From: Pseudomonas sp. 7SR1
GTDB lineage: Bacteria > Pseudomonadota > Gammaproteobacteria > Pseudomonadales > Pseudomonadaceae
Length of the DNA: 64,000 nt
Assembly: GCF_900156465.1 (NCBI RefSeq)
Contig: NZ_LT707064.1
Span: 5,223,001-5,287,000, forward strand
Direction: 5' to 3'
Shown here in pieces: positions 18,523-35,840 of this stretch. The notes under the pieces were generated by a model, which was not told where the DNA came from, did not search any database, and saw only the letters and a program-made list of their open reading frames with translations. The stretch's first letter is position 1. Each line of letters opens with the position of its first letter. The position numbers and the translations under genes were made by a program.

Positions 18523-18570
18523 GAAACAATGAGTGGACCCGCCCGCCGTTGCGGGCGGTCGACAAAACCG

Positions 18571-19329: not shown

Positions 19330-19448
19330 GGCGTATCTCCCAATGGACGCTTTTATTTGTCTTAAGTCCGGTAAGGGTGCCCCAGGTGTATGGCAGGAGG
19401 CTCAAAATGAATATAAACGATTTACTTGAATCGTAAAGAGATTTATAA

Positions 19449-19465
19449 GTATCGAATATCGATAC
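19449..19465. promoter_or_regulatory. Candidate IclR-type operator (perfect inverted repeat)
   Basis: A perfect 7-bp inverted repeat GTATCGA-ATA-TCGATAC in the 163-bp divergent region between the ABC importer operon (minus) and the IclR regulator (plus), 27 bp before the regulator's start. The size and spacing suit IclR-family sites, which are about 15-bp palindromes, and the region is AT-rich like a promoter. Assignment to the adjacent regulator is inference. Confidence 0.5.
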
Positions 19466-19492
19466 GCATGAAGCAAAAACAAGGAATTCCAC

Positions 19493-20269
19493 ATGAGCGA
19501 AACCCCTCACCCTCTGTTCAATCAGTCACTGGAGAAAGGCCTGGCGGTGCTGCGAGCCTTCAACGCATCCCGGCGCACGATGAATCTGGCGGATATCGCG
19601 CAAGCGGCGGATATCAATAAAAGCTCCGCGCAACGCATGATCCACACCCTTGAAGAGCTTGGTTACGTGCGCAAGCATCCGCAGACCAAACGCTTCCAGC
19701 TGACCCCGAAGGTCATGGAGATCGGCTACAACTACCTGGCCGCCGATACGCTGGTCGACGTGGCCAACCCGTTCCTTGCCGAGCTGGCCCAGGCTACCGG
19801 GGAGACGACCAACCTGACCGAACCCGACGGACTGGACATGGTGTACGTGGCACGCTTCGTGGCACCGAAATTCATCCCGATCCACATGCCCATCGGCAGC
19901 CGGATACCAATGTACTGCACCGGTTCCGGACGGGCCTTGCTGAGCGCCCTGCCCGACGACGAACTCACTGCCGTACTGCACGCCAGCGAGCGCAAACGCC
20001 ATACCCAGTACACCCTGACCGCGGTCGACGACATCATCGAGCAGATCGAGACCACGCGGCGCAGAGGCTACGCCACGAACAAGGAAGAGTTGTTCCTGGG
20101 CGACATGTCCATCGCTGCGCCAATCATCGGCAGCCAGGGCCTGCCGGTAGCGGCCGTGCATGTGGTGGTGCCCAGCAGCCGCTGGACCATGGAGGAAGCC
20201 GAGCGCAAGCTGGCACCCGCGGTCATCGAATGTGCACGGGCGATTCGTTCGTCGATACGGACCCTTTAG
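19493..20269 (+). CDS. IclR-family transcriptional regulator
   Basis: 258 residues. N-terminal winged helix ('MNLADIAQAADINKSSAQRMIHTLEELGYV', about 23-52, recognition helix in the middle) and C-terminal effector-binding domain with 'IGSRIPMYCTGSGRALLSAL' and 'GYATNKEELFLGDMSIAAPI', both family hallmarks. Divergent from the ABC importer/oxidase operon, with a palindrome between them. It most likely represses or activates that operon in response to the imported compound. A Shine-Dalgarno (AAGGAA) precedes the ATG. Confidence 0.93.
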   Translation: MSETPHPLFNQSLEKGLAVLRAFNASRRTMNLADIAQAADINKSSAQRMIHTLEELGYVRKHPQTKRFQLTPKVMEIGYNYLAADTLVDVANPFLAELAQATGETTNLTEPDGLDMVYVARFVAPKFIPIHMPIGSRIPMYCTGSGRALLSALPDDELTAVLHASERKRHTQYTLTAVDDIIEQIETTRRRGYATNKEELFLGDMSIAAPIIGSQGLPVAAVHVVVPSSRWTMEEAERKLAPAVIECARAIRSSIRTL

Positions 20270-20520: not shown

Positions 20521-21486
20521 TCAAACCGAAGCCTTCAGATCCACCCCCAGCGCCCGGGCAAAGGCCTTGACCAAGGGGCTGCGTACAGTGTTGTGACGCA
20601 GTATCAGACTGAACGGCGTGACGATGTTGATCAGGTCTGGACATACTGCGCGAAACTCTCCCCGCGCCACCATCGATGCGGCGTAATGCTGGGGCAGGAA
20701 CCCGAGGAAACGCCCCGTCTTGATCAGCAGCGCCACGGCTTCCACTTGGGTGGCTGAGGCGGAGAAGCTGTCGTAGTGCGCAAACTTCAGTTTGTCGCGA
20801 TGAATCGCGTAGCGATGGTTGACGCATTCGTACTCCTTGAGCACATGTGCGCCAATGTCCTCGTCCGCCATGGAGAACAGCGGGTGGCCAAGTGCGCAAT
20901 AGACCTGCGAACGTTCTTCATAGAGTTCGTAGTAATCGAACTCTTCGCGTTTTTGATAAATCGGTACGATTCCCGCTACCAACCGCCCTTCGACGACACC
21001 TCTTTCGACTTCATCGAGTTGTGAAGCATGAAGTTGAAACCGGACTTTGGGCGACTGTTCATTCATTTGCCTGAGCGCAGCAACTAACGGGGAGTTATCA
21101 TCCGAGATAGTATTATCAATAACCCCCACACCAAGATCACCAACAAGTTCGTTCTGCGCTGAACTAAGTCGGTCACGGAAGTTGTCGACCGAGGCAAATA
21201 AGTCTATCGATGCCTGATACACCAGACGCCCTTCTTCCGTCAGGTGAAAGCCCTCGCGCCCACGCGTACAAAGGCGCATCCCGATACGGATTTCCAAGTC
21301 GGAAATCTGTTTGCTGATGGCTGCCAGCCCCACGTTCAGCTCATTTTGTGCGGCACTAAAGCCTCCCGCCTCGACCACCGCCTTGAACACTTTGAGCAAT
21401 TTGAAGTCCAGCCCGCTGAGGGCCAACGGTGCCCTTTGCGGGGTTCTTGGCGGCGGGTTTCCGGAATTGGAAAGTGGGGTTTCCAT
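20521..21486 (-). CDS. LysR-family transcriptional regulator
   Basis: 321 residues. The N-terminal DNA-binding part 'LDFKLLKVFKAVVEAGGFSAAQNELNVGLAAISKQISDLE' is a LysR helix-turn-helix, with the effector domain behind. The recognition helix is atypical (GLAAISKQI instead of TQPAVSRQI). Divergently oriented 295 bp from the ArgH-like lyase gene, which heads a plus-strand catabolic block, so it is the likely regulator of that block. Confidence 0.9.
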   Translation of the reverse strand: METPLSNSGNPPPRTPQRAPLALSGLDFKLLKVFKAVVEAGGFSAAQNELNVGLAAISKQISDLEIRIGMRLCTRGREGFHLTEEGRLVYQASIDLFASVDNFRDRLSSAQNELVGDLGVGVIDNTISDDNSPLVAALRQMNEQSPKVRFQLHASQLDEVERGVVEGRLVAGIVPIYQKREEFDYYELYEERSQVYCALGHPLFSMADEDIGAHVLKEYECVNHRYAIHRDKLKFAHYDSFSASATQVEAVALLIKTGRFLGFLPQHYAASMVARGEFRAVCPDLINIVTPFSLILRHNTVRSPLVKAFARALGVDLKASV

Positions 21487-21781
21487 AATGCTTATTTACC
21501 TCTGGCGCTCTATTCAACAACCTGTGCCCAACAACAAGAACAAGCTGGCCCAATAATAATGAACACAGAAAACCAAGCTTGGCAACCGCCAATAAATTCC
21601 GAACATCAGCGCCAAAACGCTGGTCGCGAAACATCAAAAGCTGACAGTTCGATCAGCGCTCGCACCGATGCAACTGCCCTCTTGAAAACTGCTCTGGCCT
21701 GACTTCGCTCGCTGATTTTCGTAGCGACGTCGTGGCCTGGAGTACCCGTTTCAGTTCGCGAAACCGACGAGGAAAACAACA

Positions 21782-23209
21782 ATGTCTCAAACCACCGACC
21801 GACTCTGGGGAGCTCGCTTCAAATGCGGCCCTTCCGAAGCCTTGGCGGCCCTGTCCCGTTGCCCTGAGCGCTACTTCCGGCTCACCCCGTACGACCTCGC
21901 CGGCTCCAAGGCCCATGCCCGGGAATTGCAGCGCGCCGGACTGCTGAACGAGCAAGAAACCCTGACCATGCTCGACGCCCTGGAACGCATCGGCGCGGAC
22001 TATCGCGCCGGCAGCATCGCCCCGACCCTGGATGATGAAGACGTCCACACCTTCATCGAGCGCCTGCTGACCGAACGGCTTGGCGCCTTGGGTGGCAAGC
22101 TGCGGGCCGGTCGTTCGCGCAACGACCAGACCGCCAACGATCTGCGGCTGTTCCTGCGTGACCACGTACGCACCGTGGCCGTTGAAGTGCTGGCCCTGCA
22201 GCAGGCGTTGGTGGAACAGGCCGAGCAACACATCGAAAGCATCTGCCCCGGCTTCACCCATCTGCAGCAGGCGCAACCGATCGTGTTTGCTCACCACCTG
22301 CTGGCCCACGCCCAGTCGATGCTGCGCGACGTACAACGGTTGGTGGACTGGGACGCACGGACGTCGCTGTCGCCACTCGGTGCGGCGGCCATGGCGGGCT
22401 CGGCGATCGCTCGCCTACCTCAGCAATCGGCAAAGGAAATGGGCTACAGCGGCGTTTGCGAAAACTCCATCGACGCCGTGGCCAGCCGCGATCACGTCGC
22501 CGAGTTCCTGTTCATCGCCAGCATGCTCGGCATCAATATCTCGCGCCTTGCCGAAGAGTTCTGCCTGTGGTCATCGCGGCAATTTCGCTGGGTCGCACTG
22601 GACGATGCCTACGCCACCGGCAGCTCGATCATGCCCCAGAAGAAGAATCCGGACATCGCCGAACTGGCGCGAGGCAAGGCCGGTCGCCTGATCGGCAACC
22701 TGACCGGCCTGCTCTCCACGCTCAAATCCCTGCCCCTGTCCTACAACCGCGACCTGAGCGAAGACAAGAACGGTGTGCTCGACAGCGTCGACACGCTGCT
22801 ACTGGTATTGCCCGCCATGGCGGGAATGGTGGCGACCATGAAAGTCAATGTCGAGGAGTTGCGCCGCCAGGCACCGCTGGGCTTCACCCTCGCCACCGAA
22901 GTTGCCGATTGGCTGGCGGTGCGCGGCGTACCGTTCAAGGAAGCTCACGAAATCACCGGTGCTCTGGTCCAGGCGTGCGAGAAACACGACATCGAACTGT
23001 GGGAGGCCTCCCCCGCTCTGCTGGCGGAAGTCGATCCTCGCCTCACCCCGGAGGTACGCGAAAGCCTGACCCTCGAAGCCGCCATCGCTGCCCGCAATGG
23101 CTGGGGTGGGACCGCGCCACAACAGGTACGCGAACAGATCGGACGCTTGAAAGCCGCCCTCGCCACCCAGCAGCAATGGACCGAGGACTATCAGGGCTTG
23201 CGCCTCTGA
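21782..23209 (+). CDS. ArgH-like lyase of the aspartase/fumarase superfamily (substrate probably not argininosuccinate)
   Basis: 475 residues. Superfamily motifs are intact: 'GRSRNDQTAND', 'THLQQAQPI', the signature loop 'GSSIMPQKKNPD' with the catalytic Ser, and 'YNRDLSEDK'. These enzymes eliminate fumarate from N-substituted aspartates. The N-terminal substrate loop differs from housekeeping ArgH: the usual SIxFDxRL before 'LAGSKAHA' is here 'LSRCPERYFRLTPYD'. The gene is followed at once by an amino-acid ABC importer and has its own LysR regulator, instead of standing with arginine-biosynthesis genes. I infer a catabolic C-N lyase acting on an imported N-substituted aspartate (EDDS-lyase-type chemistry is one known example). 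The substrate is unproven. Confidence 0.82.
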   Translation: MSQTTDRLWGARFKCGPSEALAALSRCPERYFRLTPYDLAGSKAHARELQRAGLLNEQETLTMLDALERIGADYRAGSIAPTLDDEDVHTFIERLLTERLGALGGKLRAGRSRNDQTANDLRLFLRDHVRTVAVEVLALQQALVEQAEQHIESICPGFTHLQQAQPIVFAHHLLAHAQSMLRDVQRLVDWDARTSLSPLGAAAMAGSAIARLPQQSAKEMGYSGVCENSIDAVASRDHVAEFLFIASMLGINISRLAEEFCLWSSRQFRWVALDDAYATGSSIMPQKKNPDIAELARGKAGRLIGNLTGLLSTLKSLPLSYNRDLSEDKNGVLDSVDTLLLVLPAMAGMVATMKVNVEELRRQAPLGFTLATEVADWLAVRGVPFKEAHEITGALVQACEKHDIELWEASPALLAEVDPRLTPEVRESLTLEAAIAARNGWGGTAPQQVREQIGRLKAALATQQQWTEDYQGLRL

Positions 23210-23223
23210 GCAACACACCGGAC

Positions 23224-23249
23224 CTGTGGGAGCGAGCTTGCTCCCACAG
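23224..23249. repeat. Short palindrome CTGTGGGAGC...GCTCCCACAG
   Basis: A perfect 10-bp inverted repeat with a six-base loop, 15 bp after the lyase stop codon and 33 bp before the permease start. The same arm sequence recurs at 33382-33407. Such palindromes are common between Pseudomonas genes and may stabilise or attenuate transcripts. No T-run follows, so it is not a canonical terminator. Confidence 0.75.
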
Positions 23250-23282
23250 CGATAGCGCTGCAACCGAGTACGGAGAAACAAC

Positions 23283-24161
23283 ATGAGCCAGACACAGGCA
23301 GAACGACTCCAGGCGGAGCGCAAGCTGGCGGAAAACCAGTTCGACATCACCCAGTACGATCATGTGCCCCGGCGCTACTACGGGCGTATCTTCTTCGCCA
23401 CGCTGATCGTCATCGCCCTTGTTGGCCTGGTGCGTGCCTTCGCCGAAGGCAAGATCGAATGGTCGTACATCGGCCAGTTCCTGACCTCCGAGGCGATCAT
23501 GTGGGGCTTGCTCAACACCATCGTCATGGCGGTATTGGCCATGGCGCTGGGCATCGTGTTCGGCGTGATCACCGCGATCATGCGCATGTCGGCCAACCCG
23601 ATCCTGCGCTATGTGGCCGTGACCTACACCTGGCTGTTTCGCGGCACGCCGTTGATCCTGCAACTGCTCCTGTGGTTCAACCTGGCGCTGATCTTCCCCA
23701 CCATCGGCATTCCCGGCCTGTTCGAAATGGACACCGTGAGCCTGATGACTCCGTTCGCGGCGGCCTTGCTGGGCTTGAGCATCAACCAGGGTGCCTACAC
23801 CGCCGAAGTGGTGCGCGCCGGCCTGCTGTCGGTGGACACCGGGCAATATGAGGCTGCCAAATCGATCGGCATGCCACGCCTGCAAGCGCTGCGCCGGATC
23901 ATCCTGCCCCAGGCCATGCGGATCATTATTCCGCCGGTAGGCAACGAGTTCATCGGCATGGTGAAGATGACCTCGCTGGCGAGCGTGATCCAATACTCGG
24001 AATTGCTCTACAACGCCCAGAACATCTACTACGCCAACGCCCGCGTGATGGAGCTGCTGATCGTTGCCGGCATCTGGTACCTGGCCACCGTCACCGTCCT
24101 GTCCTTTGGTCAGAGTCGCCTGGAGCGTCGTTTCGCCCGCGGCGCCGGCAAGCGTTCCTGA
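23283..24161 (+). CDS. Amino-acid ABC transporter permease
   Basis: 292 residues. A cytoplasmic N-terminal extension of about 35 residues, charged and helical ('[18 protein letters not shown]'), precedes the first membrane helix, longer than usual for this family. '[20 protein letters not shown]' and the EAA loop '[23 protein letters not shown]' are typical. Transcribed with the downstream ATPase (10 bp) and binding protein, and downstream of the ArgH-like lyase. A GGAG Shine-Dalgarno precedes the ATG. Confidence 0.92.
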
Positions 24162-24171
24162 GGAGTTCCAC

Positions 24172-24936
24172 ATGAGAAGCATCGTCAAGGCCGTGAGCCT
24201 GAATAAATATTACGACCAGTTCCACGCGCTCAAGGACATCGACATCGAAGTCGAGCAAGGCGAAGTGCTGTGCATCATCGGCCCGTCCGGATCGGGAAAA
24301 AGCACCTTGCTGCGCTGCGTCAACCAGTTGGAAAAAATCGACAAGGGCGGCCTGTGGGTCGACGGCGAACTGGTGGGCTACCGGATCGTCGGCAACAAGT
24401 TGCACGAACTCAACGAAACCCAGATCGCCCGCCAGCGGCTGTCCACCGGCATGGTGTTTCAACGGTTCAACCTGTTCCCTCACATGACCGTGTTGCAGAA
24501 CATCATCGAAGGACCGTGCCAGGTACTCAAGCGCTCCCCCAAAGAAGCGAATGAGGAGGCCCTGGAATTGCTCGCCCGTGTCGGCCTGGCGGACAAATGC
24601 AACAGCTACCCGATCGAGCTTTCGGGCGGCCAGCAGCAACGTGTGGCCATCGCTCGTGCATTGGCCATGCGTCCCAAGCTGATGCTGTTCGATGAACCCA
24701 CTTCGGCACTCGACCCGGAACTGGTCGGTGAGGTGCTGTCGGTGATGCGCGATCTTGCGCAGACCGGCATGACCATGATCGTCGTCACCCATGAACTGGG
24801 CTTCGCTCGCGAAGTTTCCAATCGCATGGTGTTCATGGACGACGGGCAGATCGTGGAGGCTGGAAGCCCCGAAGAAATACTAATAAGTCCACAGAACCCT
24901 CGCACCCAAAGCTTCATTTCTGCCGTTCGAACCTAA
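24172..24936 (+). CDS. Amino-acid ABC transporter ATP-binding protein
   Basis: 254 residues from the start at 24172, chosen because GAGGAG precedes it; in-frame codons upstream overlap the permease gene. Walker A '[13 protein letters not shown]', an insert after it ('[20 protein letters not shown]') found in a subset of polar-amino-acid ATPases, signature '[15 protein letters not shown]', Walker B '[13 protein letters not shown]'. Part of the importer encoded from 23283 to 25800. Confidence 0.93.
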
Positions 24937-24975
24937 GCGTCCGTTGACGCTCACAACACTCATAAGAGAACGACC

Positions 24976-25800
24976 ATGAAGAACTTCTTTATCCCCGCAG
25001 TACTCGCTGGCGTCATGGCTTGCGGCTTCACCTTCGCGGCCGAATTGCCGGCAAGCATCAAGGCCAAGGGCGAAATCGTCGTGGCGATCATGCCGAACTA
25101 CCCGCCGATGGACTTCAAGGACCCGGCCACCAACACCCTCACCGGCTTTGACTATGACCTGGGCAACGCCCTGGCCGAGCGCCTGGGTGTGAAGATCAAG
25201 TGGCAGGAAACAGGCTTTGAACAAATGATCAACGCCCTGACCACCGACCGCGTCGACATGGTGCTGTCGGGCATGACCGACACCGCCGAACGCCAGGCCA
25301 GCGTGACCTTCATCGACTACTTCACCAGTGGTCCGCAGTTCTACACCTTGCAGAAAAACAAGGACACCAACGAAATTCTCGACCTGTGCGGCAAGAAAGT
25401 CGGCACCAGCCGCCGCACCACCTTTCCAGCGGAAATCGCCGAGTGGAGCAAGGCCAACTGTGAGGCCGCCGGCAAGCCGGGGATCAACGTGGTCGGCACC
25501 GAAGGCTCGGCCGATGCCCGGGCGCAACTGCGCCAGAGCCGCATCGATGCAGCCATGCAGGGCAGCGAAACCCTGCCTTACCTCAAGACCCAGGAAAAGG
25601 ACATGTACAAGACCGTGGGCCTGCCGATCTCCGAGCAGTACACCGGCATGGGCGTGAGCAAGAAGAAACCTGAGCTCAGCGAAGCGGTGAAGGTCGCGCT
25701 GCAAAGCATGATCGATGACGGCAGCTACCAGGCGATCCTGAAGAAGTGGGATCTGGAACTGGGAGCGATCAAGACCGCGACCATCAACGCCGGGAAGTGA
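24976..25800 (+). CDS. Periplasmic amino-acid ABC substrate-binding protein
   Basis: 274 residues with a signal peptide (to about residue 22). 'IVVAIMPNYPPMDFKDPATN' is the usual pocket entry, 'SGMTDTAERQASVTFIDYF' the hinge; two cysteines (in 'DLCGKKVG' and 'KANCEAAG') probably form the family disulphide. Third gene of the importer that follows the ArgH-like lyase. The presumed ligand is the lyase substrate or a related amino acid; this is inference. Confidence 0.92.
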   Translation: MKNFFIPAVLAGVMACGFTFAAELPASIKAKGEIVVAIMPNYPPMDFKDPATNTLTGFDYDLGNALAERLGVKIKWQETGFEQMINALTTDRVDMVLSGMTDTAERQASVTFIDYFTSGPQFYTLQKNKDTNEILDLCGKKVGTSRRTTFPAEIAEWSKANCEAAGKPGINVVGTEGSADARAQLRQSRIDAAMQGSETLPYLKTQEKDMYKTVGLPISEQYTGMGVSKKKPELSEAVKVALQSMIDDGSYQAILKKWDLELGAIKTATINAGK

Positions 25801-25824
25801 TCGCACAGGCCATTTGATTCCGAT

Positions 25825-25901
25825 GTGGCTGCGGGCTTGCTTGTGAGTGTTCCAACGTCAATGTTGCTTCACTCGACGCCATCGCGAGCAAGCCCCGCCA
25901 C
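25825..25901. repeat. Imperfect REP-like inverted repeat
   Basis: Arms GTGGC(T)GCGGGCTTGCT and AGCAAGCCCCGCCAC separated by about 40 bases, between the binding-protein stop and the first deacetylase-family gene. The 'GCGAGCAAGCCCCGCC' core is a frequent Pseudomonas intergenic element. It could reduce read-through or stabilise the upstream transporter mRNA, so genes from 25942 on may be expressed separately. Confidence 0.6.
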
Positions 25902-25941
25902 AAAGGGTCTGGTGTCTACGAATAAAGATGGAGCACTACCG

Positions 25942-26784
25942 ATGCCCTCCTCACCCACCTGGCCCGCGCCGCACAAGGCTTGCCTGGCCCTGGCCTTCGA
26001 CCTCGATGGCCCGACCGGTGATGCCATGCTCAACGGCTCGATCTGGCGTAAGCCCGAGTACTTCGGGTTCGGCGGCTATGGCCCTTACCGTGCACTACCG
26101 CGCCTGCTCGATGTGCTCGACGAATTCCGGATCCCGACGACATTCTTCGTCCCCGCCTGGGTCGTGGAGAACTGGCCGAGACAATGCCAGGCGATTGTCG
26201 AGCGTGGGCATGAGGTGGCTTATCACGGCTACAAACACGAATCCTTTTATGCCCTGACACTGGATCGGCAAAAGGAAGTCATGCAGATCTGCCGCGAGGT
26301 GTTCTGGAAACACCTGCACATCCGCGCAGAAGGCTTCCGCACGCCGTCCGGCGACTGGCGCGCCGAGACCCCGGCCATGCTGGTGGAAGCCGGGGTGATC
26401 TATTCCAGCAGCATGCGCGGCGACGACCGACCGTACCTGATGGAGGTAGCGGGTTTCGATACGCCGCTGGTGGAAATTCCAGGCCGATGGGAAATGGACG
26501 ATTACGCGTCCCTCGCCTACACCCGCGCGCCGAACTTTCCTTCCGGGTTGGACCGTACGGCCAGTTACGCGCTGACCCTGGACAACTGGTGCCGCGAATA
26601 TGACGGCGCGATGGACGAAGGGTTGTGCCTGACCACCCTCTTGCACCCGAAAATCATCGGTAAGCCGGGACGCCTCCTGCTGCTGGAAAAGCTTTTCGAA
26701 CACATGCGTCGGCGCGATGACGTGTGGTTCGCCACCTGCCGCGACGTCGCCCACTTCTGGTTGAAGGAGCACCGCCATGGCTGA
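25942..26784 (+). CDS. Polysaccharide-deacetylase-family amidohydrolase, paralogue A (PuuE/HpPgdA-like)
   Basis: 280 residues from the ATG at 25942, which has GGAG eight bases upstream; 39 in-frame codons before it lie in the repeat region. NodB fold: motif 1 'LAFDLDG', motif 2 'VAYHGYKHES' with both metal-ligand candidates His95 and His99, and C-terminal 'LTTLLHPKIIG'. The short HGxKH form resembles the PuuE allantoinase / cyclic-imide-hydrolase branch rather than peptidoglycan deacetylases, and there is no signal peptide, so it acts in the cytosol. I infer hydrolysis of a cyclic amide or similar C-N bond. It overlaps the next gene, a paralogue, by eight bases. Confidence 0.84.
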   Translation: MPSSPTWPAPHKACLALAFDLDGPTGDAMLNGSIWRKPEYFGFGGYGPYRALPRLLDVLDEFRIPTTFFVPAWVVENWPRQCQAIVERGHEVAYHGYKHESFYALTLDRQKEVMQICREVFWKHLHIRAEGFRTPSGDWRAETPAMLVEAGVIYSSSMRGDDRPYLMEVAGFDTPLVEIPGRWEMDDYASLAYTRAPNFPSGLDRTASYALTLDNWCREYDGAMDEGLCLTTLLHPKIIGKPGRLLLLEKLFEHMRRRDDVWFATCRDVAHFWLKEHRHG

Positions 26785-27658
26785 TTCCATCTGGCCGGAA
26801 GGCTATCGCTGCGCTGTGGTACTGACCGTCGATTACAACGACATCCATGGCATCCTCACACAAGCCCCGGAAGTGGCCGGGCGTGACAAGACCTTATCGG
26901 TATGGCGCTACGGTACCCAACGCGGCGTGGCGCGCTTGCTCGGCCTGTTCAAGGAACTCGGGGTCTGCAGCAGTTGGTTCGTCCCCGGCATCATGGCCGA
27001 GGAAAACCCAGCGCTCATCCAGACGATCCAGGACGACGGTCATGAGATCGCCTGCGCCGGCTACCGTCATCAGGATTACGATGCGCTAGACCTGGACGCC
27101 CAGGGCGCCGATGTCGTCAGGGGCTGCGAGACCCTGGCCAGGCTGACCGGCAAGCGCCCGGTCGGCTTTCGAATCCCGGCAGGCAATGGTGCGCCGGGAT
27201 TCATCGGCGCATTGAAGGACCAAGGCATCCGCTGGTCCTCGTCGTGGCGCGGCGACGACTTGCCATTCGCTCACCCGACTGCGCCCGGTGTCATTGAAGT
27301 GCCGCTGCATTATGAGCTGGAAGACGAGCCTTACTTCGCCTTCAACTTGAGCCCGGCGGTGCCACCGGGACAATCACGGATCGCCTCCTACAGCCACACC
27401 CTGGGCAACCTGCAAATGGATTTCGCCGGGTTTCACCGTTTTGGCCTGTGCTATGTACTTCGCCTGCACCCGGAAATCATCGCCACGCCGGGACGGATAG
27501 GCGTGTTGCGCGAGTTGATCGAGGGCATTCAACGGCACGACGACGTGTGGATCGCCACCGGCGCCGAGGTCGCGCAATGGTGGGCAAACAGCGCAGCGCC
27601 GGCGGCCGAGGATCATCCCGCCTCGGTATACGAGCGCCATTACCGGGATTACGTCTGA
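26777..27658 (+). CDS. Polysaccharide-deacetylase-family protein, paralogue B (first metal His replaced)
   Basis: 293 residues, same family as the upstream gene and about as long, so tandem paralogues. 'VVLTVDYND' is motif 1; motif 2 reads 'IACAGYRHQDYD', with Ala94 where paralogue A has His95, while His98 is kept. Loss of one metal ligand suggests a non-catalytic or altered subunit, perhaps a partner of paralogue A. Other shared blocks are 'WSSSWRGDDLPF' and 'YVLRLHPEIIATPGR'. It overlaps paralogue A by eight bases, and its stop codon shares a base with the start of the PrpD-like gene, so the three are translationally coupled. Confidence 0.84.
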   Translation: MADSIWPEGYRCAVVLTVDYNDIHGILTQAPEVAGRDKTLSVWRYGTQRGVARLLGLFKELGVCSSWFVPGIMAEENPALIQTIQDDGHEIACAGYRHQDYDALDLDAQGADVVRGCETLARLTGKRPVGFRIPAGNGAPGFIGALKDQGIRWSSSWRGDDLPFAHPTAPGVIEVPLHYELEDEPYFAFNLSPAVPPGQSRIASYSHTLGNLQMDFAGFHRFGLCYVLRLHPEIIATPGRIGVLRELIEGIQRHDDVWIATGAEVAQWWANSAAPAAEDHPASVYERHYRDYV

Positions 27659-29007
27659 TGAGCGAACGTTTGCAACGGTTGGCGCAATTCTGTGTCGATC
27701 TGCGGTTTGAAGATCTCTCGCCTGGGTTGATAGCCCAAACCAAGCGACACATTGTCGATACGTTCGGCGCAACCCTGGTCGGCGCCGAGAGTGAGATCGC
27801 CAAACAGGCACATAAAGTATTCGCCGGTGACGCGGGCGAGGTTCCGGTTTGGGGAACCGCTCTGCAGGTCGGCGCGGGCCCGGCGGCGATGTTGAACGGC
27901 ATCGCCGCCCATGCGCTGGAGCTGGACGATACCGGTGGTTGCGATCACTCCGGGGCCGTCGTGCTGCCAGCGGCGATGGCGGCGGTTTCGCTGCGCGCAC
28001 GGCCCGTGAGTGGTCGTGAATTCATCAGCGCCGTCGTGATCGGTTATGAGGTTGGCCGTCGAGTCCTCGAAGCCTGCGGCGGCTATAGTGCCCACAATGG
28101 CGCCGGCTGGCACTCCACCGCGACCTGCGGGGTGTTCGGCGCAGCCGCCGCCAGTGCGCGCATCCTGGGTCTGGATACCCGGCAAACCCTGGCCGCACTG
28201 GGCATTGCCGGCAGCTTCAGCGGTGGCCTGTGGGCCTTCATTCACGATGGCTCGCACAGCAAGAAACTGCACAGCGGGCGCGCCGCAGAAGGGGGTCTGC
28301 TGGCTGCGCGGTTCACCCAACAAGGCATCAGCGGGCCGACGCAGTTATTCGATGACGTCTGGGGCGGTTTTCTGAACACCCTTGCCCCAGCGACTTCAAG
28401 ACCCGAAGCCCTCGATGCAGAGCTCGGCGTGAACTGGAAGCTCGCCCGCTGCTCGATCAAACCCTATGCCTCCTGTCGCGGCACCCATTCGGCCATCGAC
28501 GCCCTCGGCCAGCTGTTGGAGCAGTTGAAGGTATCCGTTGACCAGGTCGAAAACCTGCACGTCGGGTTGAGCGGTTTTCTTCACGGCATGTGTGGCGGCC
28601 GGGATATCGCCCACCTCGCGGCCGCACAAATGAGCCTGCCGTATGCCCTCGCCGCGCGGTTGGTGCATGGGCATTGCCAACTGCACGCTTATGACGATCG
28701 GCAACGCAACGATCCTTTGGTGACTCAGTGCATGTCGCGCATCCAGCTTGAAGTGGACCCGCGACTGGATGAGGATGGCGAGCCTGTGGTGACCCTGCGG
28801 ACCGTGGACGGTCGGCAGGCAAGCCTGTGTGTGGAAGTGCCCTTGGGAGCGCCGGGCAATCCACTTGCCGATGAGGCCCTGGATGAGAAGTTCTTCAGTT
28901 TGACGACGCGGGTAATGCCCCAGGAACGGGCTGCGGAACTACTGAAGCAACTGCGACGCATGGAAGACCTGGAATCGATACGTACGCTGGAACGGTGGCT
29001 GGGGTGA
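27658..29007 (+). CDS. MmgE/PrpD-family protein
   Basis: 449 residues. 'FVDTFGATLVGAES'-like opening (here 'HIVDTFGATLVGAESE'), 'GIAAHALELDDTGGCDHSGAVVLPA' with the HxLxxDD motif, 'WHSTATCGVFGAAAASA', and 'KPYASCRGTHSAIDAL' are MmgE/PrpD signatures. Family members include 2-methylcitrate dehydratase, cis-aconitate decarboxylase and iminodisuccinate epimerase. The last acts on an N-substituted bis-aspartate, which is intriguing beside an ArgH-like lyase. Start chosen at 27658: its ATG overlaps the previous TGA. Substrate unproven. Confidence 0.86.
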   Translation: MSERLQRLAQFCVDLRFEDLSPGLIAQTKRHIVDTFGATLVGAESEIAKQAHKVFAGDAGEVPVWGTALQVGAGPAAMLNGIAAHALELDDTGGCDHSGAVVLPAAMAAVSLRARPVSGREFISAVVIGYEVGRRVLEACGGYSAHNGAGWHSTATCGVFGAAAASARILGLDTRQTLAALGIAGSFSGGLWAFIHDGSHSKKLHSGRAAEGGLLAARFTQQGISGPTQLFDDVWGGFLNTLAPATSRPEALDAELGVNWKLARCSIKPYASCRGTHSAIDALGQLLEQLKVSVDQVENLHVGLSGFLHGMCGGRDIAHLAAAQMSLPYALAARLVHGHCQLHAYDDRQRNDPLVTQCMSRIQLEVDPRLDEDGEPVVTLRTVDGRQASLCVEVPLGAPGNPLADEALDEKFFSLTTRVMPQERAAELLKQLRRMEDLESIRTLERWLG

Positions 29008-29067
29008 TCAGGGTATCGACGGCTCGGGCGTCATCGCGGTGCACGCCAACAATCTGAATAAGGACAT

Positions 29068-30255
29068 TTGCACCTCGTGGCCACTTACTCCCTCGTCATT
29101 CGACGCTTGATGATCGTTTCGCTGACCATTGTGGTGAGCCGCGCCATCACCAGCCCGTTGCTTACGCTGTTTCTGAGCAACAAGCTGGGCCTCAATCAAC
29201 AAGATGTCGGCTTGCTGCTGGGCATCGCGGTGTTCATCGCCACCCTGCTGGCCTTGTACGGTGGCTACATCATCGACCGCCTGGAGAAGCGCCGGCTGCT
29301 GATCCTGGCGATGCTCTCCAGCGCCGTGGGTTTCGTCCTGCTGACCTTTGCCGAAAACCTTTACCTGACTACCTTGACCGTGGTGATCACCGAGACCGCG
29401 TCAGCCCTGTTTCTGATCGGCTCCAAAGCGATCCTCAGCGAAAACCTGCCCATCGGCCAGCGCGCCAAAGCGTTTTCCCTGCGCTACACCCTGACCAACA
29501 TCGGCTACGCCACCGGTCCCATGCTCGGCGTGGTGATTGCGGGGGTCTACCCGATTGCGCCATTCCTGATCGCCGCAGGCATCGCGTTCTTCAGCGTCTT
29601 TCTGATGATGGGAATCCCCAGCGATGGAACGCCGACAGCGGCCCTTGGCCCACCGCCCAGCTTTCTCAAGACGTTGAAGACCCTGAAGAACGACCGCACG
29701 CTGATCATGTTCACCTGCGGCTGCCTGCTCAGCACCGTGGTGCACGGGCGCTTCACGCTCTATCTGTCGCAATACCTGCTGGTCACTCACGACGCCAAGC
29801 GTGCACTGGAGATCATGGCCGCCCTGCTCGCCTGCAACGCAATCACGGTGATTGTGCTGCAATACCAGATCGGCCGGTTCCTCGACCGCGAGAAGCTGCG
29901 CTACTGGATCGCTGCGGGCACCAGCCTGTTCATGCTTGGCCTGATCGGATTCAGCCTGGCGGACGACATGCTGAGTTGGTGCGTGGCGATGTTCATTTTC
30001 ACGCTCGGTGAAATGATCATCTACCCGGCCGAATTTCTCTTCGTCGATACCCTGGCCCCGGAAGAACTGCGCGGCAGCTACTACGGCGCCCAGAACCTGG
30101 CCGCCCTGGGCGGCGCCCTGAGCCCGGTGATCTGCGGGTACCTGCTGATACAAACCCCGGCACCGACGATGTTCTATGCCTTGAGCGCCTTGACTGCGAT
30201 GGGCGGGCTGCTGTGTTTCATGAGCGGGCGTCGGGTAGCGGCCGTGCAGAAGTGA
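29068..30255 (+). CDS. Major facilitator superfamily transporter
   Basis: 395 residues if the TTG start is used; the GTG three codons on or the ATG at codon 15 are alternatives and no Shine-Dalgarno is decisive. About 12 membrane helices. 'LGIAVFIATLLALYGGYIIDRLEKRRLLILAML' includes the motif A loop, and 'LGEMIIYPAEFLFVDTLAPEELRGSYYGAQNLAALGGAL' resembles the drug/dipeptide exporter branch (YdeE/MdtH-like). It could export or import an intermediate of the catabolic block. It is 60 bp after the PrpD-like gene. Confidence 0.85.
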   Translation: MHLVATYSLVIRRLMIVSLTIVVSRAITSPLLTLFLSNKLGLNQQDVGLLLGIAVFIATLLALYGGYIIDRLEKRRLLILAMLSSAVGFVLLTFAENLYLTTLTVVITETASALFLIGSKAILSENLPIGQRAKAFSLRYTLTNIGYATGPMLGVVIAGVYPIAPFLIAAGIAFFSVFLMMGIPSDGTPTAALGPPPSFLKTLKTLKNDRTLIMFTCGCLLSTVVHGRFTLYLSQYLLVTHDAKRALEIMAALLACNAITVIVLQYQIGRFLDREKLRYWIAAGTSLFMLGLIGFSLADDMLSWCVAMFIFTLGEMIIYPAEFLFVDTLAPEELRGSYYGAQNLAALGGALSPVICGYLLIQTPAPTMFYALSALTAMGGLLCFMSGRRVAAVQK

Positions 30256-30572
30256 TTCATGGAACGGCATTCTTGCTGTAAGACGGCTCGGCGGCGTGAG
30301 CAACGCCAGGTTCCGGAACATCGGATCCATGACTGACGATCAGGGCAGCGACCAGTGATCAATAGTTTAGAAATCTCTGAACTATCTTTTTGTGCTTCCC
30401 TATTTTTTCCGCCAACCGCCCCTCCCTACTATTGATGGCAACAAAGGAGCCTTCCATAGAGATCCGGCCCGAAGATTGCCTTTCCTGATTGTCACTGCCG
30501 TTCGTTGTGCGTTTCGGTTAGCGCCGCAACGTCGCCGTGTCAATCATGCGAAGGAAACTTTGGAGCAGATCG
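30256..30572. other. Intergenic region with a possible operator
   Basis: 317 bp without a supported gene. It is AT-richer in its middle (30355-30410), holds a 10-bp imperfect inverted repeat at 30362-30385, and ends in the Shine-Dalgarno of the isomerase gene. Probably the promoter of a second transcription unit (30573-34984). Confidence 0.5.
30362..30385. promoter_or_regulatory. Candidate operator: inverted repeat ATAGTTTAGA-N4-TCTGAACTAT
   Basis: Ten-base arms with one mismatch around AATC, in an AT-rich stretch 187 bp before the isomerase gene. The layout suits binding of a dimeric regulator such as the LysR protein encoded at 20521-21486 or an unlinked one. No experimental or family match is claimed. 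Confidence 0.4.
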
Positions 30573-31424
30573 ATGAAGTTGGAAATATTCCGAACGTTGT
30601 GGGGCTACACCGCAAGCAAGGCACAAGCGCTCGACGAGTTGCTTGAAGCCGGGTTCGATGGCATGGAAGCCCGCCTGCCCATGACCGCCAGCGAACGTGC
30701 CGAGTTCGCAGCCTTTCTACGCATCAACAAAGTCAGTTATATCAGCACCGTCTTCAGCGCCTACGACGTTCTGCCGGAGCAGTCGGCAACTCCCGACGAA
30801 CACCTTCTGGACCTCGACAAGAAACTCGGTTGGGCGGCTGAGTTGGCACCGCGCTTCATCAATCTGCTGGCTGGCAACGATCGCTGGCCCCTGGCACAGC
30901 AAGTCGACTTCTTTGGCCGCGCGATGGACCTCGCGCGCAAGCATGGCCAGGTGTGCGCCTTCGAAACCCATCGCGCTCGCTCGTTATTCAATCCCTGGGT
31001 CACCCTCGAGTTGATTCGTCAACTGCCGGACCTGCGCTTCACCAGCGACATCAGTCATTGGGTCGTCACCTGCGAGCGCCTGCTCAACGATTCGGAAGAC
31101 GATCTCAGCACCTTCGTCGAACGCGTTCACCATATTCAAGCCCGAGTCGGATACGACCAGGGACCGCAAGTGCCCCACCCCGCCGCTCCCGAGTACAGCC
31201 AAGCGCTTGCCTTCCATCAACAACATTGGGAGGCCATCTGGCGATCCCAGGAAAAACGCGGGTATCAGGTCAGCACGCTGACACCGGAGTTCGGCGCCGA
31301 CGGCTACCTGCATCACCTGCCCTTCACCAACGTGCCGGTGGCTGATCTGTGGTCGCTGAACGTGTGGATGGCAAACACCGAGCGCGAGCATTTTCGGCGT
31401 TTCGCCTGCACCTCAACCCGATAA
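30573..31424 (+). CDS. Sugar-phosphate isomerase/epimerase-like TIM-barrel protein
   Basis: 283 residues from the ATG at 30573, with GGAG seven bases before it; 12 in-frame codons upstream are ignored. '[13 protein letters not shown]', '[15 protein letters not shown]', '[18 protein letters not shown]' and '[23 protein letters not shown]' give the metal-site residues (Glu, Asp-His, His) of the xylose-isomerase-like AP-endonuclease-2 superfamily. The reaction (isomerisation or epimerisation) cannot be assigned. It begins a second unit with the oxygenase, a binding protein and the fused transporter. Confidence 0.83.
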
Positions 31425-31437
31425 GGAGCGCCCACTC

Positions 31438-32490
31438 ATGCCTGACAAAACGCCAACGACTGCCAACTTCAGCCGCATTCCGGTGGTGGATATCGCCGGG
31501 CTGTACAGCGACGACCTCACCCAGCGACAGGCGGTGGCCGAAGAACTGGGTAACGCCGCCCGCGCAGTCGGTTTCCTGTACATCAAGAACCACGGCATCG
31601 AGTCGTCACTGATCGACGGCTTGCGTCAAGCGGCGAAGAACCTGTTTGCCCAATCGCTTGAATACAAAATGCAGCATTACATCGGCACTTCACGCAGCCA
31701 CAAGGGTTTTGTGCCTGAAGGTGAAGAGGTCTATGCCAAAGGCAAACCCGATCACAAGGAAGCTTTCGATATCGGTTTCGAAGTGAGCGAAGACGATCCG
31801 CTGGTGATTGCCGGCACGCCACTGATCGGGGCCAACGAATGGCCGGACCTGCCAGGTTTCCGTCCCGCCGTCGAAGCCTACTACGCCGCGGTGTTTGCAT
31901 TAGGTCGGCGCTTGTTCAAGGGGTTCGCGCTCGCTTTGGGCCTGGAGGAGGACTATTTCGAGGCAATGGTGACTCGCCCACCGTCGAAACTGCGGCTGAT
32001 CCACTACCCATTTGACCTGGCGGCTCAAGACGCGCCCGGCATTGGTGCGCATACCGACTACGAATGCTTCACCATTTTGCTTGCCGACAAGCCAGGCCTC
32101 GAGGTGATGAACGATCAGGGGCAATGGATTGATGCGCCGCCCATGGACGGTACGTTTGTGGTCAACATCGGCGACATGCTGGAGGTCATGACCGCGGGCA
32201 CATTCGTTGCTACGGCTCACCGAGTGCGAACCGTCAGCGAAGAGCGCTACTCGTTCCCACTCTTCTATGCCTGCGACTTCCATACGCAAATCAAGCCACT
32301 GCCGCAGTTTCTTGAAGGCGGTAAGGATTACGAGGAAATCACCATCGGTGAGCACATGTTTGGCCAAGCGTTGCAAACCTATCAATACCTGCGCCGCAAA
32401 GTCGAACGCGGCGAACTCAAACTGTATGAGCGCGCACGCAAGCCTTCGAGCTTCGGTCACTTGAAGAACCAGACGCAGGAAGCGTCCTGA
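31438..32490 (+). CDS. Fe(II)/2-oxoglutarate-type oxygenase, isopenicillin-N-synthase-like family
   Basis: 350 residues. The N-terminal 'IPVVDIAGL' and '[10 protein letters not shown]' are the DIOX_N block. The iron site is His205-x-Asp207 in 'GAHTDYECF' with distal His261 in 'TATAHRV'; Arg270-x-Ser272 in 'RYSFP' would bind the 2-oxoglutarate carboxylate (or, in IPNS, the substrate). It hydroxylates or oxidises a small molecule in the cytosol. 13 bp after the isomerase gene and followed by an ABC importer, so it probably modifies the imported compound. Substrate unknown. Confidence 0.9.
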
Positions 32491-32562
32491 TGCCCCCCGA
32501 CCGTTCCAAGACAACCCTGTTTCAAACCAGTCCAATCCTACTTTTTCGACGTGGAGTCACCG

Positions 32563-33369
32563 ATGATGCGCAATCCAATGAATATTGCTGTCCGCTTGTC
32601 CCTGCTGGCCTTCGCGATCCTCGGTGCGGCAGGAGCCCACGCAGCCACGACGGTGACACCCGGCGTCCTCAAGGTCGGCATGGAAATCACCTATCCGCCC
32701 TTCGAATCTTACGACGAACAAAAGAATGTCGTCGGCTCCGACCCCGAACTGGCGCGATTACTCGCCAAACATCTGGACCTCAAGGCCGACTTCGTTGACA
32801 CCAAATTTCCCAACCTGCTTCTGAGCCTGAACGCCGGTCACTATGACGCGATCATCTCGGGCATGTACATCACCCCCCAACGGCAGACTCAGGCGCAAAC
32901 CATCCCATACGCCAAGACCGGCGCAGCGATCATGGTGCTCAAGGACAGCCCGCTGAAACCGAAAGTACCGCAAGACCTCTGCGGCCTGAAAGTCGGCCTG
33001 GAAAAAGGCACCACTTGGGTCACGCAATTCAACAAACTCTCGACCGATTACTGCGTCCCGAATAACAAGGGCGTGGTCATGGTCAGCGAATTCCCGTCCG
33101 CCCCTGAAGTGACCCAGGCGCTGCTCTCCGGCAACGTGCAGGCTCAGGTGGAGATCGACGGCGCCGCCGGCATGATCGCAGAACGCACCAAAGGCCGGGT
33201 TGTGATCAGCACCGATCACTCGATCTATCAACAGACGCTGGGGATCTACGTCAAAAAGGACAACGACGCGCTCTATCAGGCGCTGCTCAAGGCTTTTGAC
33301 GCGACGAAAGCGTCGGGTGAATACGCCGCCCTGTTGAAGAAATACAACCTGGAAGAACCGACTAACTGA
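32563..33369 (+). CDS. Periplasmic amino-acid ABC substrate-binding protein
   Basis: 268 residues from the ATG at 32563 (GGAG seven bases upstream; a GTG four codons earlier is rejected). Signal peptide to 'AGAHA'. 'LKVGMEITYPPFESYDE' is the pocket entry, 'DAIISGMYITPQRQTQAQTIPYAKTG' the hinge; two cysteines in 'DLCGLKVG' and 'DYCVPNN' probably form the disulphide. Partner of the fused permease-ATPase gene 106 bp downstream. Second such importer within 10 kb, with a different binding protein, so a related but distinct ligand is likely. Confidence 0.92.
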   Translation: MMRNPMNIAVRLSLLAFAILGAAGAHAATTVTPGVLKVGMEITYPPFESYDEQKNVVGSDPELARLLAKHLDLKADFVDTKFPNLLLSLNAGHYDAIISGMYITPQRQTQAQTIPYAKTGAAIMVLKDSPLKPKVPQDLCGLKVGLEKGTTWVTQFNKLSTDYCVPNNKGVVMVSEFPSAPEVTQALLSGNVQAQVEIDGAAGMIAERTKGRVVISTDHSIYQQTLGIYVKKDNDALYQALLKAFDATKASGEYAALLKKYNLEEPTN

Positions 33370-33381
33370 CTCAATGCAGCC

Positions 33382-33407
33382 CTGTGGGAGCGAGGCCGCT
33401 CCCACAG
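33382..33407. repeat. Short palindrome CTGTGGGAGC...GCTCCCACAG (second copy)
   Basis: Same 10-bp arms as at 23224-23249, with loop GAGGCC, 13 bp after the binding-protein stop and before the fused permease-ATPase gene. Its position between a binding-protein gene and a membrane-component gene suits differential expression by mRNA stabilisation. No T-run follows. Confidence 0.75.
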
Positions 33408-33475
33408 TCGGCGGCGTTCGCTTGACTGCCCGGCATAGGTGAAGCCTCCGTCGACGCCAGCAGTTGGAGGTACAC

Positions 33476-34984
33476 ATGCAATTTGAATGGCCCTACTTCT
33501 TTTCTCTGTTTTCGGTCTCGGACTTCTGGAAAGCCTGCATTACGGTGGTGGAACTCAGCACGCTGGCCTGGTTCATCGGCATGCTGCTGGGCTTCCTGCT
33601 GGCGTCGGCCAAGCTTTCGGCCACGCGTTGGATCAGCGTGCCGGCGTCGGTTTATATCTGGTTCTTTCGCAGCGTGCCGCTGCTCGTACTGGTGGTGTTC
33701 GTCTATAACCTGCCGCAGATGTTCCCGGTCACCCGTGGCGTACTGTCCAACCCGTTCTATTCCGGCCTGTTCGCGCTGGTGGTGACCGAGGCGGCGTACA
33801 TGTCGGAAATTCATCGGGGCGGCTTGATATCCGTTGCCAAAGGCCAGAAAGAAGCCGGCCGTGCACTGGGCATCGGCCTGATCGGTCTGCAGCGCCTGAT
33901 CGTGATCCCGCAGGCGTTCCGCATTTCCCTGCCGACCCTGATCAATGAATACATCACAGTGGTGAAGCTGACCTCGCTGGTCTCGGTGATTTCCTTGACC
34001 GAACTGTTGACCGTGGGCCAGCGCCTTTACGCGCAAAACTTCCTGGTCATGGAAACCCTGTCGGCTGTGGCGGTGTATTACGTGCTGATCGTGACCGTGC
34101 TCGGCTGGCTGTTTCATTGGCTGGAGCAACACCTGGAGCTCAACAACCGCAAACCACAGACGCTGGATGACATCAGCCTGCGGCGTCTTCGCGCGGTACG
34201 GGCGGTGACCTCTCCGGCAGACGCTCGTACAGCGCCAGGGCCTGGTTCGGCACCCGCCCTGCAGCTGGTTGACATTCACAAGCGCTACGGCCAGCACGTC
34301 GTGCTCAAGGGCATCAACCTTGATGTCAACGTGGGCCAGGTGATCTCCATTATCGGTCCGTCGGGATCGGGGAAAACCTCACTGATTCGGACCATCAACG
34401 CCTTGGAAAACATCGACCAGGGCGAGATCATTCTATTCGGCGAAAGCTATATCAACGCCGGTGACAACACCAACACGCACCCAGTACGCCGTGGGATACA
34501 GCGCATCGGCATGGTGTTCCAGAGCTTCAACCTGTTTCCCCATCGCACCATTCTCGACAATGTCACCCTCGCCCCGCGTTATCACGGCCGCGACAAGTCC
34601 ATCAGCGAGCAGCGCGCCTACGCTCTGCTGGACAAAGTAGGGTTGCTGGCTCACGCGCAAAAGTATCCGCATCAGTTGTCAGGCGGTCAGCAACAACGGG
34701 TGGCAATCGCCCGCGCATTGGCGATGGATCCCCACATCATGCTGTTCGATGAACCTACTTCAGCCCTTGACCCGGAACTGGTCGGCGATGTGCTCAAGGT
34801 GATCAGCGACCTGGCAAAAGAAGGCATGACCATGTTGATCGTGACCCATGAAATGGACTTCGCCATGTCAATTTCCGACAGGGTGGTTTTCATGGAGGAC
34901 GGCCTGGTCAAACTGGATGCGGAGCCTGGGATGATCCGAGCTGACCAGTGCGGCGAGAGAATCAGGAAATTCATGAGGGTTTGA
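33476..34984 (+). CDS. Amino-acid ABC transporter: permease fused to ATP-binding protein
   Basis: 502 residues from the ATG at 33476 (GGAGG just upstream). Residues 1 to about 215 are a polar-amino-acid permease ('YIWFFRSVPLLVLVVFVYNL'; EAA loop 'EAGRALGIGLIGLQRLIVIPQAF'). A linker of about 40 residues, rich in Arg, Ala and Pro, leads to a full ATPase with Walker A 'GPSGSGKTSLIRT', signature '[15 protein letters not shown]' and Walker B '[13 protein letters not shown]'. In most importers these are separate genes; the fusion would make a dimeric transporter with fixed 1:1 subunits. Works with the binding protein at 32563-33369. Confidence 0.93.
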   Translation: MQFEWPYFFSLFSVSDFWKACITVVELSTLAWFIGMLLGFLLASAKLSATRWISVPASVYIWFFRSVPLLVLVVFVYNLPQMFPVTRGVLSNPFYSGLFALVVTEAAYMSEIHRGGLISVAKGQKEAGRALGIGLIGLQRLIVIPQAFRISLPTLINEYITVVKLTSLVSVISLTELLTVGQRLYAQNFLVMETLSAVAVYYVLIVTVLGWLFHWLEQHLELNNRKPQTLDDISLRRLRAVRAVTSPADARTAPGPGSAPALQLVDIHKRYGQHVVLKGINLDVNVGQVISIIGPSGSGKTSLIRTINALENIDQGEIILFGESYINAGDNTNTHPVRRGIQRIGMVFQSFNLFPHRTILDNVTLAPRYHGRDKSISEQRAYALLDKVGLLAHAQKYPHQLSGGQQQRVAIARALAMDPHIMLFDEPTSALDPELVGDVLKVISDLAKEGMTMLIVTHEMDFAMSISDRVVFMEDGLVKLDAEPGMIRADQCGERIRKFMRV

Positions 34985-35312: not shown

Positions 35313-35840
35313 ATGAAATATGCATCCTTCAGAACCGATCGCATCGATCTCTATTGGTCACATTGGCCGGATAATGTCACGCCTGGCGAGGAAATTGTCC
35401 GTGGGTTCGAGGCTGATCTGTTCCCGGCTTCGCATGCGTTGGGATTGGGTATCGTCACTTGGTCGCCACTCGGCGCAGGCATGCTGACCGGTAAGTACCG
35501 CAAGGGCGAGAAAGGACGCGCCGAGGGCCTCGGTGGCAAGGTGTTCCAGGCAGAGAATAGCGAGCAGCGCACACCGGTCCTCGACACGGTGATCGCCATC
35601 GCCAACGAACTGGGCGTCAGCCCCGGTCAGATCGCCATCGCCTGGTCCGGCACGCACGGGTCGTTGCCCATCATCGGCCCGCGCTCGGTTGAGCAGTTGG
35701 CCGACAACCTCGCAGCCCTGTCGGTTGAACTGTCAGCCGAGCAGATTCATCGGCTCGACACCGTTAGCAGTTTGTCTGCTTCGATGCCAGCAAGGACAGC
35801 GGCCCCTTGGGCTCGCGCAGCAGCGCAGATCGTGGCTTGA
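35313..35840 (+). pseudogene. Aldo/keto reductase, truncated and internally deleted
   Basis: 175 codons that match only parts of an aldo/keto reductase of about 330 residues. The start falls at 'RTDRIDLYWSHWPDN', which is mid-barrel, so the N-terminal third with the catalytic Asp, Tyr and Lys is missing. After 'EEIVRGF' the sequence jumps straight to 'PASHALGLGIVTWSPLGAGML', losing roughly 90-100 residues around strands 5-6. The C-terminal NADPH-binding part ('SPGQIAIAW', 'PIIGPRSVEQLADNL') is intact. The frame is open, but the product cannot be a working enzyme. Confidence 0.85.

Follow-up and report, generated by a model that had tools for sequence, protein, structure and literature searches.

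Which compound is broken down by a catabolic-looking gene cluster that joins a paralogue of argininosuccinate lyase (ASL, encoded by argH) to an amino-acid importer? The question is raised by positions 20521 to 34984 of a 64,000-nucleotide stretch of Pseudomonas sp. 7SR1 DNA (contig NZ_LT707064.1, positions 5,223,001 to 5,287,000; hereafter the window), part of a 6.09-Mb genome in a single contig. All genes named in the original prediction, which had been made from the sequence of the window, were present with the coordinates and families that it gave. It had treated them as one catabolic block; we found two units, Unit 1 (20521-30255) and Unit 2 (30537-34984), with a gap of ~280 bp between the MFS gene and the TIM-barrel gene (Table 1). 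Unit 1 comprises a LysR regulator gene and then, in order, genes for the ArgH-like lyase, a three-gene importer, two hydrolases (PDA1 and PDA2), an MmgE/PrpD protein (PrpD), and an MFS transporter. The spacing is operon-like: the PDA1 and PDA2 genes overlap by 8 bases, and the PDA2 and PrpD genes share one base.

We give about an even chance to the reading that Unit 1 serves importer-coupled nitrogen scavenging of argininosuccinate-class guanidino-succinates. Its general class, an importer-coupled C-N lyase acting on a predicted N-substituted aspartate, is well supported, and recurrent neighboring genes, together with the two separate origins of the ArgH-family lyases, support a guanidino or arginine partner. 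We found no account of this operon or its function in the open-licence literature of PubMed Central.

Distribution of Unit 1

A genome scan with PrpD gave 201 stretches that encode a relative, and the best 80 loci were kept. PDA1, PDA2, and PrpD were all encoded in 80/80 of them. In a stricter recount, the order PDA1-PDA2-PrpD was confirmed in 79, and the exception (L066) lost PDA2 to the overlap filter only. The lyase and importer genes lay ahead of the hydrolase genes in 74 of the 80 loci, the remaining six starting at a contig end, and the LysR gene was seen in 70. Among the 54 Pseudomonas loci L006-L059, all but L024, which is cut off by a contig end, had an MFS gene after PrpD (53/54). 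The hosts of the 80 loci were mainly Pseudomonas, then Pantoea, Erwinia, Rahnella, Rouxiella, Serratia, Prodigiosinella, and Variovorax. Overall, Unit 1 recurs in Pseudomonas, Enterobacterales, and Burkholderiales and is rearranged in Alphaproteobacteria.

Linkage was measured in a survey of 149 Pseudomonas genomes (cut-offs, E ≤ 1e-100 for PDA1 and E ≤ 1e-180 for the lyase). PDA1 was detected in 32 genomes and the lyase in 46. All 32 PDA1 genomes also carried the lyase, compared with 9.9 expected, and the two genes were 2.6-3.3 kb apart in 31 of them and on different contigs in the 32nd. These results indicate that Unit 1 is a real, widespread operon. The expectation that the whole set would co-occur as a unit in relatives was thus borne out for Unit 1 but not for Unit 2.

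Several variants were observed. Five Pseudomonas regions (L099-L103) carried only the LysR gene and a lyase-importer-MFS series, and one of the two copies in a Burkholderiales genome (L127) consisted of lyase and importer genes without the others. Because these loci lack the hydrolases and PrpD, the importer and lyase may work alone; the hydrolases and PrpD look like an extension of substrate range. In Sinorhizobium meliloti, Agrobacterium, Rhizobium, and Neorhizobium, the order was lyase-importer-PrpD with one hydrolase. In Ensifer, another Rhizobium, and Ochrobactrum, a different ArgH-type lyase came after importer-PDA1-PDA2-PrpD. The Paracoccus cluster, importer-PDA1-PDA2-PrpD without a lyase, adjoins genes for an arginase and an ornithine cyclodeaminase, both of which pass the NCBI curated cut-offs. 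In three further Pseudomonas regions (L096, L097, and L098), a lone operon-type lyase gene lay near Unit 2 and a pair of genes read from sequence as MmsA/MmsB-like; with no recognised importer or hydrolases, these represent a decayed or alternative state.

Ancestry and active site of the lyase

The lyase scored 527.5 bits against the argH model TIGR00838, 502 bits against Mycobacterium tuberculosis ASL (6iem), and 206 bits against ethylenediaminedisuccinate (EDDS) lyase (6g3d). A separate argH, 44% identical to the lyase, is present in the window genome (G000:C1:1826440), and a separate argH was also found in 8/8 other lyase-bearing genomes among the 11 genomes searched. By sequence, the operon lyase is paralogous to argininosuccinate lyase and distinct from the biosynthetic ArgH of its genome. 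Public records name it argininosuccinate lyase, yet 46/149 Pseudomonas genomes carry this catabolic-looking paralogue. A protein search with the lyase gave, among the 120 matches listed of 7999, relatives that were 74-96% identical and offered no substrate clue; the closest named lyase among them, 96% identical, was labelled P. frederiksbergensis. The proposal that an ArgH homologue splits N-substituted aspartates, modelled on EDDS lyase, held as to family but not as to likeness to that enzyme. The two belong to the same superfamily, and N-substituted aspartates are the substrates of EDDS lyase; identity with EDDS lyase was rejected on the distance between the two scores.

Active-site residues were surveyed in 88 lyase sequences from 94 loci (duck numbering). 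Fifteen positions (89, 115, 116, 161, 162, 238, 281, 283, 289, 291, 293, 296, 323, 330, and 331) were the same as in ASL in all 88 sequences. Among these are positions 116, 161, 162, 281, 283, 289, 291, and 296, which we take to be the catalytic and fumarate-side residues of ASL and which were kept in 88/88. K325 was replaced by Arg in all 88, as in M. tuberculosis ASL, and position 332, Glu in ASL, was not Glu in any of them. The lyases of L130-L132 agreed with this pattern, in a survey that excludes the later rhizobial loci. The operon lyase thus has the family and the catalytic and fumarate-side residues of ArgH in common but differs in being an extra paralogue beside a separate argH, in its catabolic context, and in the replacement of positions 33 and 328.

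The Ensifer-type lyases were 52% identical to the ArgH of the window genome and 39-41% identical to the window lyase; they retain D33 and Q328 and are changed at positions 323, 330, and 332. A 33-row tree placed the lyases of the operon with M. tuberculosis ArgH (100/100) and the Ensifer/Rhizobium/Ochrobactrum-type lyases inside proteobacterial ArgH (98/98). The hydrolase-PrpD-importer cassette has apparently gained an ArgH-family lyase twice.

Proposed pathway and its rivals

The D-x-D and HG(Y/H)xH motifs of PDA1 were present in 85/85 relatives. In PDA2, the first histidine of motif 2 was absent in all 68 relatives (of 84) whose patterns are listed, and PuuE has HGYRW at this position in the alignment. 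Both hydrolases share the family of PuuE allantoinase, which opens the cyclic amide of a related ring, but PDA1 and PDA2 scored 81.7 and 88.1 bits against the allantoinase model TIGR03212, far under its cut-off of 424.6. The best PDB match of PrpD was iminodisuccinate (IDS) epimerase (2hp3, 123.7 bits), with 7bra, labelled 'Bacillus subtilis IRG1', near-equal at 122.8 bits. Iminodisuccinate degradation in Agrobacterium BY6 reportedly proceeds through an epimerase and a stereoselective C-N lyase. Unit 1 likewise encodes a putative PrpD-type epimerase and a putative fumarate-releasing C-N lyase; it differs by its two ring-type hydrolases, its importer, and the ArgH origin of its lyase.

The observations are of gene order and linkage, the ancestry and residue pattern of the lyase, and the neighboring genes; from these we propose the reactions, their order, and the candidate substrate. 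The ABC importer would take up a guanidino-succinate compound, and the two PuuE-type hydrolases would open cyclic amides, for example, rings that argininosuccinate forms spontaneously. PrpD would invert the succinyl (aspartate) stereocentre to the form usable by a stereospecific lyase. The lyase would then eliminate fumarate, releasing arginine or a guanidino acid closely derived from it, and the freed guanidino product would enter the arginine route of each lineage. Ring closure of argininosuccinate is documented (PMC6918381), and a five-membered ring of this type would be chemically close to the hydantoin ring opened by allantoinase. An imported and possibly cyclic N-substituted aspartate, as originally predicted, would fit the ArgH-type lyase, the ring-opening-type hydrolases, and the IDS-epimerase-like PrpD. 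We tentatively suggest a damaged-metabolite version, which we hold to be possible and clearly less probable than scavenging in general. In this version, argininosuccinate that has cyclised to its five- or six-membered 'anhydrides' and racemised would be rescued for the ArgH paralogue by ring-specific PuuE-type hydrolases and the PrpD epimerase.

The guanidino half of the proposal comes from neighboring genes. Nine arginine/guanidino query proteins were searched around 107 operon loci in 16 lineage groups, leaving out L096-L098 (lone lyase), L123, L137, L138, and L141; the controls were 60 random 20-kb regions from seven genomes, all of the window's order. A match was found near 34/107 loci, in 7/16 groups, compared with 1/60 control regions. 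In Prodigiosinella, the astCADBE operon for arginine succinyltransferase (AST) degradation begins ~100 bp past PrpD on the same strand. In the Pantoea/Erwinia group, genes for a guanidinobutyrase-like ureohydrolase (520 bits to 3nio) and an iron-type alcohol dehydrogenase adjoin the unit, the latter gene occupying three different positions among Enterobacterales. A related ureohydrolase (64%) is encoded upstream of the unit in Variovorax. Ureohydrolase genes also lie 30 bp downstream in Agrobacterium, directly after the hydrolase gene, likewise in Rhizobium CCGE532, and after PrpD in Microvirga. In Pseudomonas, where 52 of the loci L006-L059 had at least 3.5 kb of sequence past the MFS gene, CtlX was found near 17 loci, 16 of which also had AstA nearby. 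CtlX and the lyase occurred together in 19/149 Pseudomonas genomes (expected 12.7, P = 0.011). The window genome had no CtlX at the cut-off, and its guanidinobutyrase-like gene lies 0.7 Mb from the locus. Since the genes around the unit in other lineages suggest that the partner is arginine or a guanidino compound, the metallophore-like derivative considered in the original prediction appears less likely.

Expression data are consistent with nitrogen scavenging. At the cut-off, pSymB of S. meliloti 1021 has one place for the lyase, which we equate with SMb21094. In a report on an S. meliloti tolC mutant (PMC2912261), argH2 (SMb21094) is down 20.7-fold and SMb21095-97 are down 10.3- to 17.5-fold. 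The same report has argH2 and the importer genes falling alongside nitrate, histidine, and other nitrogen-scavenging genes, describes SMb21095-97 as a transporter of unknown function, and suggests decreased NtrC expression. If scavenging of guanidino-succinates is correct, the operon would add to the nitrogen sources known for root-associated bacteria, S. meliloti included, and would give functions to PuuE-like and PrpD-like families and to that S. meliloti importer. The candidate substrates are few, so direct testing is feasible.

Several results weigh against this reading. D33 and Q328, which we take to be arginine-end positions of ASL, were lost in 88/88 lyases: position 33 was Tyr in 83, Phe in 4, and His in 1, and position 328 was Ser in 71, Ile in 8, Ala in 6, Gly in 2, and Val in 1. 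These losses, the chief evidence on this point, suggest that the window enzyme may act on something other than plain argininosuccinate; we read the lyase as one whose C-N lyase chemistry has probably been kept and whose amine half has been altered. The binding protein has Gly (as do at least 83 of 86 relatives) at what is presumably the position of the amino-group-binding Asp in related amino-acid binding proteins. The M. tuberculosis and duck rows were flagged as long branches in the lyase tree. The arginine/guanidino queries and lineage groups were picked after the neighbors had been seen, so the enrichment lends support without being a clean test; 9/16 groups had no such neighbor, and none was recognised in the window's own Unit 1. 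The overlap of CtlX with PDA1 (11/149 genomes) was not beyond chance (expected 8.8, P = 0.22), and arginine is no substrate of guanidinobutyrase. Control by NtrC and sigma-54, prompted by the S. meliloti data, was rejected: a sigma-54 site scoring at least 10 of 12 was found upstream in 0/95 loci, with start codons approximate.

The loss of D33 in every surveyed lyase and of the presumed amino-group Asp from the binding protein would also follow if the guanidino half were an arginine derivative with no free alpha-amino group. It would be either N-acetylated by a linked GNAT enzyme (acetylate, split, deacetylate) or deaminated (4-guanidinobutyrate or 2-ketoarginine), and the lyase would free it. 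A GNAT gene was found ≤3 kb from the unit in 39/107 loci and 7/16 groups, mostly directly upstream of LysR, compared with 12/420 overlapping 7-kb control windows. By group, it was seen in 19/58 Pseudomonas loci, 11/12 of the Pantoea group, 5/5 of Agrobacterium/Rhizobium/Neorhizobium/Shinella, and one each of Burkholderiales, Sinorhizobium, Microvirga, and Chelatococcus. This recurrence is a hint that blocking of the amino group may come first, as in the scm/yxe pathway; such blocking would account for the loss of D33. Genes for M20-family hydrolases near the Bosea and Microvirga copies point the same way, as does the guanidinobutyrase-like gene that adjoins the Pantoea-group and Variovorax units. 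On the other side, the GNAT model was built from seven of the recurrent genes, which are diverse, and the query was chosen after the neighbors were seen; the window's unit has no GNAT gene, and 68/107 loci show none ≤3 kb away. Moreover, the arginase with ornithine cyclodeaminase and the AST operon use arginine itself, and the Ensifer-type lyases retain D33 and Q328. We regard a substrate without a free amino group as unlikely, if worth keeping in view. Near the Chelatococcus copy, L131:5654-6319 encodes an Asp/Glu-racemase family protein.

The residue changes at positions 33 and 328 would be expected, too, if the amine half were not arginine at all. The substrates would then be guanidine-free N-(1,2-dicarboxyethyl) amino acids, such as EDDS- or IDS-type chelators, aspergillomarasmine/toxin A, or succinopine-type opines; the hydrolases would open lactams, PrpD would epimerise, and the lyase would yield fumarate and an amino acid. 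The best PDB match of PrpD is consistent with this, and EDDS lyase accepts many amines (PMC12363623). However, the lyase resembles ArgH far more than it does EDDS lyase; elsewhere, the same cassette is accompanied by another ArgH-derived lyase, one that has D33 and Q328; and arginine/guanidino neighbors occur in 7/16 groups, in a search whose queries did not include chelator- or diaminopropionate-breakdown genes. Guanidine-free substrates therefore seem improbable to us.

The scm/yxe pathway for S-(2-succino)cysteine offers another comparison, and its YxeQ we take to be a member of the MmgE/PrpD family. In the yxe locus, genes for a class-I lyase and an amino-acid ABC importer are found together with that for YxeQ, a protein of unknown function (PMC9706529). 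Unit 1 might by analogy salvage a thiol adduct as fumarate damage, and the GNAT genes near many of its relatives recall the yxe acetylation step. Its lyase is, however, an ArgH paralogue, its recurrent neighbors are of arginine/guanidino type, and the window's unit has neither an acetyltransferase nor a deacetylase gene; the scm/yxe lyase (2SL) was compared by gene context, not by sequence. A thiol adduct is very unlikely to be the substrate.

Unit 2 and other features of the window

In the flanking sequence retrieved for the 80 loci (≤10 kb), no close copy of the Unit 2 genes was found except in L008, which has a TIM gene 7.4 kb away from the MFS gene. Weak matches in the flanks were a 2-oxoglutarate (2OG) oxygenase in L063 (32%) and a permease-ATPase in L055 (29%). 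The 2OG gene was present in 37/149 Pseudomonas genomes, 17 of which also had the lyase (expected 11.4, P = 0.02). The two genes were ≤10 kb apart in the window genome and in G020, G068, and G085; no Unit 1 importer, hydrolase, or PrpD gene was recognised in the latter three. The 2OG, TIM, and fused permease-ATPase genes form an operon of their own in seven other fetched Pseudomonas regions. A single 14-kb pathway was rejected because the TIM, 2OG, and importer genes do not generally travel with Unit 1. The oxygenase, the TIM-barrel isomerase, and the second importer, previously counted as pathway members, are therefore outside the conserved unit. The window, L008, and three Pseudomonas genomes do have the two units close together, so the units may be loosely linked. 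The best PDB match of the Unit 2 oxygenase was labelled an ethylene/succinate-forming enzyme (220.8 bits).

Table 1. Genes of Units 1 and 2 (window positions), with examples of GNAT genes from other loci
Feature	Coordinates	Strand	Remarks
LysR-type regulator	20521..21486	-	Pfam PF00126/PF03466; divergent from operon; same place in 70/80 loci
ArgH-family C-N lyase, argininosuccinate lyase paralogue	21782..23209	+	TIGR00838 527.5 bits; 502 bits to 6iem; residue pattern
ABC permease, polar-amino-acid type	23283..24161	+	
ABC ATPase	24172..24936	+	ORF listed from TTG 24064; ATG 24172 gives 254 aa
Periplasmic amino-acid binding protein	24976..25800	+	Best model Lys/Arg/Orn, 138 bits, under cut-off of 256
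PDA1, PuuE/NodB-type hydrolase	25942..26784	+	D-x-D and HG(Y/H)xH motifs; ORF open from GTG 25825
PDA2, second PuuE/NodB-type hydrolase	26777..27658	+	First His of motif 2 replaced
MmgE/PrpD protein, putative epimerase	27658..29007	+	PF03972/PF19305; ORF open from 27448, start checked
MFS transporter, YdeE-like	29068..30255	+	224.6 bits, under cut-off of 582
TIM-barrel isomerase, first gene of Unit 2	30537..31424	+	Outside conserved operon
2OG-Fe(II) oxygenase (Unit 2)	31438..32490	+	
Second binding protein (Unit 2)	32551..33369	+	
Fused permease-ATPase (Unit 2)	33464..34984	+	
GNAT genes upstream of LysR, examples	L057:2121-2786, L066:2129-2662, L143:3017-3487, L131:6506-7015, L126:8130-8744		

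Genes for an amino-acid oxidase-like protein, a third importer, and an IclR regulator form a further unit upstream (15825-20269). Downstream of Unit 2, a short open reading frame of 175 aa (35313-35840) resembles an aldo-keto reductase and is apparently a fragment, and positions 39099-39668 encode a NADAR-family protein (model: riboflavin-intermediate N-glycosidase).

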